Part shown: piece after piece, positions 29,906 through 35,819 of the stretch | How the letters are laid out: every line of letters starts with the position of its first letter | Numbering within the stretch: the first letter of the stretch is position 1 | DNA from: Patescibacteria group bacterium | GTDB taxonomy: Bacteria > Patescibacteriota > Minisyncoccia > UBA6257 > 02-FULL-45-10c | Direction: 5' to 3' | DNA length: 35,819 nucleotides | Assembly: GCA_018969615.1 (NCBI GenBank) | Contig: JAGWYA010000008.1 | Span: 1-35,819 of the forward strand | Notes under the pieces: model-generated | Told to the model about the DNA's origin: nothing | Database searches by the model: none | Seen by the model: only the letters and a program-made list of their open reading frames with translations | Made by a program: the position numbers and the translations under genes

Positions 29906-32900
29906 ATGGCGAAATTCACTTCCACTAAACATTTCGGAAAATCAAAAGCGCTCATCGCGCCGTTCAATTTGAACGAGGCGCAGTTGAAGTCCTACCAATG
30001 GTTCCTCGAAAAAGGGTTGAAGGAACTGCTCGACGAGATCTCTCCGGTCCGCGATCATACCGGGAAGGAGTTCGAGCTTTTCTTCACGAACTACCGCTTC
30101 GATGAGCCGAAGTACGACGAAGCGACCGCGCGCTACAAGGAAGCGACCTATGAAGCGCCCCTGCGCGCGACCTTGAAGCTTTCGAACAAACGGACCGGGA
30201 AGAGCCAAGAGCAGGAGGTCTATTTCGGAGATTTTCCGATCATGACGAGCCGGGGCACATTCATCGTGAACGGCGTCGAGCGCGTCGTGGTCTCGCAGCT
30301 CGTCCGCTCCGCCGGTGTGTATTTCACCGCGACCCCGTACCGCGGCCGCCAGCTTTTCGGCGCGAAGATCATTCCGTCGCGCGGCGCATGGCTTGAGTTC
30401 GAAACCGATGTCCAGGGAGAGATCGGCGTGAAGATCGACCGCCGCCGGAAGGTGCCCGTGACGGACATTTTGCGTGTTTTCGGCATGGAGAACGACGCGA
30501 TCAAAGAAGCGTTCGCGGACGTGGATACCGGTGCCGTGAAATATGTCGACGCAACGCTCAAGAAGGATGCGGCGAAGGACGCCGCGGAGTCCTACGTGGA
30601 GATATATCGCCGACTTCGGCCGGGCGACCCGGCGAGCGCGGAGACCGCGAAGAACCTGATCGACGCGATGTTCGACCGCGCCGACCGTTATGACCTCTCC
30701 GAGGTCGGACGGTACAAGATGAACCAACGGCTCGACCTCGACCGCAAAAAGACCACTAAATTACTGGATAAAAACGACCTCGTCGCGATCGTCCGGGAGA
30801 TCATCAAACTGAACAATACCCCCGACGCGGAGCCCGACGACATCGACCATTTGGGGAACCGCCGCCTGAAGGCGGTGGGCGAGCTTTTGCAGGGCCGTTT
30901 GCGCATCGGTCTCGCGCGTTTGCGCCGCATCATCCAGGACCGGATGTCGACCGAGGACAAGGAGACCCTGATGCCGGCCCAGCTCGTGAACTTCCGTCCG
31001 ATCGCGGCGGTCATCAAGGAATTTTTCGCGTCGTCCCAGCTTTCGCAGTTCATGGACCAAGTGAACCCCTTGGCGGAATTGGAGCACAAGCGCCGCATTT
31101 CGGCTTTGGGCCCGGGCGGTTTGACGCGCGAGCGTGCCTCCTTCGAGGTGCGCGACGTGCACCGTTCACACTACGGCCGCATCTGTCCGATCCAGACGCC
31201 GGAAGGTTCGAACATCGGTCTCATCAACTATCTCGCAAGCTACACGCGCATCAACGATTTCGGCTTCCTCGAGGCTCCGTATGCCAAAGTGAAGAATGGC
31301 GTCGTGACGAAGGAGATCCTCTGGATGGACGCTTCGGAGGAGGAAAAATATAAGATCACGCACGCGGGGACGCCGCGCGATGCCGAAGGTCGCTTGCAAG
31401 GTCCGATCGTCGAGGCTCGGGTGAAGGGGGAACCGGAAACCTGTACGCCGGAGGAAGTGGACCTCATCGACGTCGCAGCGCATGAATTTATTTCGGTTGC
31501 GACCGCGCTCATTCCGTTCTTGCAGCACGACGACGCAAATCGCGCCCTCATGGGCTCGAACATGCAGCGGCAGGCCGTGGTTTCGGTGAAACCCGATGCG
31601 CCGTATGTTTCGACCGGCCAGGAAGAAAAAGTGGCCCTTGATTCAGGCTACGTGATCCTTGCAGAGGATGACGGCACGGTGCTCGAAGCGGACGGCAGCC
31701 ACATCAAGATAAAATATGGCAAAAAGACCCAGAACTACACGCTCGAGAAGTTCAAGCGTTCAAACCAGTTCACCTGCATTTCCCAGCGCCCGCTCATTAC
31801 GGCGGGAATGAAGGTCAAGAAGGGTGATCTCCTCGCGGACGGGCCGTCCATCGAGAACGGGGTCCTCGCGCTCGGTCAGAACCTGCTCGTTGCTTTCGTC
31901 TCGTGGGAAGGCGCGAACTTCGAGGACGCCATCATCCTTTCGGAGCGCGTCGTGAAGGACGACCTTTTCACGTCCATCCATATTGATAATTACGACTGTG
32001 ACGTCCGCGATACGAAGCTCGGACCGGAGGTCACGACCTACGACATCCCGAACGTTTCCGAGGACAAATTGAAGAACTTGGATGAGGAAGGCATCATTCG
32101 CATCGGCGCCGAGGTCAAGGCCGGCGACATTTTGGTGGGCAAGATCTCCCCGAAGGGCGAGTCCGAGCTCACGTCGGAAGAGCGCCTCTTGCGCGCGATC
32201 TTTGGCGAAAAGGCCCGCGACGTGAAGGATACCTCGCTCACCTTGCCGCACGGCAAGATGGGGCGCGTGGTGAACGTGAAGATCTTCGACCGCGAGCGCG
32301 GCGACAAGCTCGAGCCGGGCATCATCCGCCGCATCCAGGTGGAGATCGCGGAGCTCCGCAAAGTGCAGGCGGGCGACAAGCTTGCTGGCCGCCACGGAAA
32401 CAAGGGCGTCATCTCGCAGGTTCGCGCCACGGAGGACATGCCGTATCTTGAGGACGGAACGCCTGTCGATATCATTTTGAACCCGCTCGGCGTGGTTTCA
32501 CGCATGAACCTGGGGCAGGTCCTTGAAACGCACCTCGGCTGGGCGGCGGGCAAGCTCGGCTACCGTGCGATCACGCCGGGCCTCGACTCTGCGACGGAAG
32601 CCCAGATCCGCGAAGAGCTCAAGTCGGCGGGATTGCCCGAGGACGGCAAAGCAAAGCTTTTCGACGGACGCACGGGAGAAGCTTTTGAGAACCGTGTGAC
32701 CGTCGGTCAGATCTACATGATGAAGCTGAACCACCTTGTGGAGGACAAAGCGCATATGCGCTCCATCGGTCCTTATTCTTTGATCACCCAGCAGCCGTTG
32801 GGCGGCAAGGCGCAGTTCGGCGGACAGCGCTTCGGCGAAATGGAGGTGTGGGCTTTGGAGGGGTATGGCGCGCGACACACGCTTCAGGAAATGCTCACGA

Positions 32901-35819: not shown

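Follow-up and report, generated by a model that had tools for sequence, protein, structure and literature searches.

An rpoB-rpoC fusion shared across family f18 lies on a very probably chimeric contig binned to family f1

The stretch of DNA analysed here (the window) is the entire contig C3, 35,819 bases long, of bin G000, an assembly of 807 kb in 14 contigs that is assigned to family f1. At the right end of the window a single forward-strand reading frame runs from an ATG at position 29906 to the end of the contig (29906-35818), and its translation yields 1971 codons with zero stops. Pfam placed all of the Rpb2/RpoB domains (Rpb2 domains 1, 2, 3, 45, 6 and 7) within residues 22-1044 of this frame and the Rpb1/RpoC domains 1-5 within residues 1056-1971. 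On the evidence of translation, Pfam and the tree described below, the frame consists of a complete RpoB (beta) part (29906-33037, +) and an RpoC (beta') part (33074-35819, +) that is incomplete, being cut by the contig end. The two are joined by a stop-free linker of 12 residues, PLYEAETDRKDN (residues 1045-1056; 33038-33073, +). Thus, the initial annotation, which had been made from this sequence alone, was correct in describing one frame that passes from RpoB through a short linker (placed at about 33039-33073) into RpoC. The RpoC part keeps both the NADFDGDQ motif and the Zn-binding CxC/CxxC motif; the RpoC C-terminus missing from the window is present in fused relatives, and DFDGD is kept in all full-length fused relatives examined. 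(Note that antisense ORFs over rpoBC, such as that at 33416-35818 on the reverse strand, were read as by-products of high GC3.) To the left of the fused frame are a 23S rRNA gene (22492-26064, +; Rfam RF02541), a 5S rRNA gene (26222-26337, +; Rfam RF00001) and, near the other end, the only tRNA gene of the window, a tRNA-Glu (ttc) at 1691-1766 (-).

Before relatives were compared, a single contig end in one metagenome-assembled genome (MAG) left room for the idea that a lost stop codon or an indel had created the fusion. Among 61 genomes searched, the nearest match was G055, a member of family f18, with 93% amino acid identity over a 333-residue segment spanning the junction. G055 is also fused, its linker being PLYETETERKDD. 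A survey of related genomes, which the initial annotation had proposed, revealed that the stop-free rpoB-rpoC junction recurs in 33 of the 38 f18 genomes, with an ORF-level check made on the subset of loci that were fetched. Of the other five, one (G084) has an intact fused frame whose contig stops just inside RpoC, three (G033, G070 and G074) have assemblies that do not cross the junction, and the last, G087, is the only genome under the f18 label in which rpoB and rpoC are separate genes. These separate genes lie on contig C44 (L222), show 51-55% identity and sit on a long branch, and the contig is probably misbinned. (In G066 the frame is broken within rpoB, the junction itself being unaffected.) Most f18 linkers are of near-constant length and follow the pattern P-[LVI]-Y ... 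RK[DE]-[ND]-F; they are homologous to one another and to the linker in the window. Because the in-frame junction is found in the independent MAG G055 and in 32 further f18 genomes, with a conserved linker, the fusion is neither a chance event nor an indel artefact, an origin that these relatives refute and that we regard as next to impossible. The sequence comparison therefore confirms the rpoB-rpoC fusion in the window as real. Moreover, with nearly all of f18 fused, it is not the one-off event of a single lineage that had been envisaged at the outset, and the pattern across f18 points to one origin of the fusion at or near the base of the family.

Judging by homology, the fused frame most likely encodes a single polypeptide with normal enzyme function. 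The product would be one beta-beta' chain of about 2250 residues, folded as beta plus beta', in which the short charged linker would tether the C-terminus of beta to the N-terminus of beta' and which, together with alpha, would form an RNA polymerase that is ordinary in other respects. The C-terminus of beta and the N-terminus of beta' are close together in RNA polymerase, so such a tether should leave the enzyme undisturbed. An AlphaFold prediction of the junction segment, made from 5 sequences only, had a pLDDT of 37, and among the best 60 of 154 matches in a sequence search of the PDB there was no chain covering both subunits. We also entertained the idea that beta' is made separately from the fused ORF, either by internal initiation or by proteolysis of the linker. 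The window does have an in-frame TTG at the start of RpoC with an AAGGA 13 nucleotides upstream. However, this TTG and its Shine-Dalgarno sequence are missing from most f18 members, no start codon is shared across the f18 linkers compared, and the linkers of many members lack any start codon. Overall, separate production of beta' appears quite unlikely.

The bin that contains the window also contains separate polymerase genes. On contig C11 of G000, rpoB (7963-11151) ends with a stop codon and rpoC (11179-14763) has a start of its own, in a neighbourhood made up of 23S, 5S, a 257-residue ORF, RodA, MltG, rpoB and rpoC. In the congener G001, the order from ClpC to 23S is as on the left of the window, and it continues with 23S, 5S, RodA, MltG, rpoB and rpoC, the last two unfused. 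Relatives with separate genes at the same locus, an outcome that had been named in advance as one that would refute the proposal, were thus found both within the bin and in its congener. In a tree built on RpoB plus RpoC (944 columns), C11 was sister to G001 (93% amino acid identity, support 100), and the rpoBC of the window nested within f18 (support 100; 91% identity to G055). As a phylogenetic test, therefore, the window rpoBC failed as a native gene of G000, the f1 position being held by C11. GC3 pointed the same way, at 0.81 for the rpoBC of the window, 0.71-0.72 for rpoB and rpoC of C11 and 0.70 for the ClpC gene in the left part of the window; note that the GC3 of f18 rpoBC spans 0.74-0.86 and overlaps the f1 range (G080, 0.74).

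Comparison of the remaining genes revealed a switch in affinity along the contig. In its left arm, FtsK (5221-7467, -; 78% to G001, 61% to G055), a 302-residue ORF, an aminotransferase, a 326-residue ORF, the ClpC-type AAA+ gene (17089-19746, +; 84% to G001, 70-73% to G055) and a 254-residue ORF match f1, with G001 the best or equal best match. Somewhat against this pattern, HtrA (13076-14350), also in the left arm, had its sole match among the loci compared in G055, at 62%, the corresponding G001 region being incomplete. In the right arm, the best matches of all five genes are in f18. These are a 255-residue ORF with no Pfam match that is a conserved neighbour in both lineages (26956-27723, +; 52% to G055, 33% to C11), FtsW/RodA (27677-28771, +; 77% to f18, including G055, versus 42% to C11 and 42-44% on the C11/G001 side overall), a YceG/MltG-like gene (28779-29783, +; 44-54% to f18, 42-43% to C11/G001), RpoB (89% to f18 versus 72-73% to the f1 side) and RpoC (86% versus 62-63%).

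The switch falls within the 23S rRNA gene. Its 5' part (1293 bases) is 86% identical to G001 and 72% identical to G055, and beyond about position 24500 the f18 genomes are mostly the closest, so that in sliding identity the gene is g1/f1-like at its 5' end and f18-like at its 3' end. Bases 1-131 of C11 are identical to window positions 23785-23915, a stretch that is identical or nearly identical in several f1 genomes as well and at which G001 contig C30 also terminates. The next stretch, 23916-24450, is 91-93% identical to C11. The simplest chimera model, with one switch exactly at 23915, was ruled out, since 23916-24200 is still f1-like and 24200-24450 is nearest to G053 of family f16. The 23S gene is a mosaic, because its nearest relatives over 23916-24500 go from f1 to f16 to f18, and the 131-base identity together with the sliding identity places a putative junction zone at 23785-24500. 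The 23S genes of these contigs also differ in their insertions. Relative to C11 the window has a 384-base insertion (25389-25772) in which neither a large ORF nor a match to an Rfam intron was found, C11 has an insertion of its own of about 280 bases (L003:568-850) that the window lacks, and the 23S on the rpoBC contig of G055 carries an ORF for a LAGLIDADG endonuclease (PF00961; L116:8919-9416, -), as is typical of an rRNA intron.

Taken together, these comparisons indicate that the window is very probably a chimeric contig with a right arm from f18, apparently produced by a mis-join. The start of C11 with 131 bases of the window 23S and the end of G001 C30 at the same place are the pattern that a fork of the assembly graph in conserved rRNA would leave. 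On this reading, the assembler would have passed from an f1 organism to an f18 organism inside the 23S gene; the native polymerase genes of the bin would be the separate rpoB and rpoC of C11. A right arm from f18 would also reconcile the separate genes of C11 and G001 with the fused frame of the window. Alternatively, a g1 organism might have acquired the segment from the 3' end of 23S to rpoBC by recombination with an f18 donor, in which case C11 would be a contaminant from a sibling strain. Both arms do sit on one contig, and flanking gene order is equal in the two lineages, so that homologous replacement is possible. However, C11 clusters with the congener G001 and matches the left arm in GC3, it begins at the identical 131-base stretch as would be the case for an assembly fork, no further f1 genome carries the fusion, and the 23S is a mosaic of multiple sources; we give horizontal transfer little credence. 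We consider it highly probable that a natural rpoBC fusion of f18, fixed and ancestral there and made as one polypeptide, was brought into an f1 bin by an assembler crossover within 23S. Of the original proposal of an independent fusion in a reduced-genome lineage, what stands is a genuine fusion in a small-genome lineage, independent (judging by distance) of those in Helicobacter and Wolbachia; what does not stand is its ownership by the organism of the window, given the separate genes of C11 and G001. More generally, rpoB and rpoC markers that adjoin rRNA genes can swap bins through chimeric assembly, and marker-based classification may be misled.

Within the order (244 genomes), stop-free one-piece junctions, a criterion that overlooks fusions with long linkers, were found only in the window, f18, f25 (G040 and G059) and f15 (G052); even samples of the class (384 genomes) and the phylum (380 genomes) contained no further ones. 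In a tree to which separate f15 members were added, the fusion requires three changes. One shared origin of the f18, f25 and f15 fusions was rejected when all fused rows were grouped (AU p = 0.0001), which argues that the fusion arose more than once. Repeated gains are more likely than losses, a matter that the count alone does not decide. A broader reading, which we offer tentatively and regard as somewhat doubtful, is that in this small-genome lineage the beta-beta' fusion defines the family and evolved repeatedly, with three separate appearances in one order. Selection would then have favoured a polymerase core made of a single chain, for instance because this fixes subunit stoichiometry or helps assembly at low copy number.

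Natural rpoBC fusions are described in Helicobacteraceae and Wolbachia in PMC7483510, which cites Lane and Darst 2010 and Zakharova 1999. Sequence comparison confirmed the fusion in Helicobacter loci L077 and L089 where, as in the window, a single frame with a short linker encodes the whole of beta and then the whole of beta'. The Helicobacter linker is unrelated and about 26 residues long, compared with 12 in the window when equal boundaries are used, and amino acid identity between the two rpoBC sequences is only 48-49%. Wolbachia, a distant lineage, is likewise described as having a natural beta-beta' fusion. In f1 (C11 and G001) gene order is as in the window and the genes are separate. 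A literature search, with partial coverage of subscription papers, returned no family-wide fixed rpoBC fusion and no repeated gains in one order. As a kind, then, the rpoB-rpoC fusion is already known, and its fixation across a family and its repeated gain in a small-genome order appear to be new. With a fusion that is fixed across a small-genome family and gained more than once in the order, the reasons for joining beta to beta' become testable by comparison. Two in-frame rpoB-rpoC joins were also seen in L105 (bacterium MAG CSMAG_1505), where the linker is almost absent, and in L111 (Bryobacterales MAG RHO3_bin_37), where it is long; these are possibly further independent fusions.
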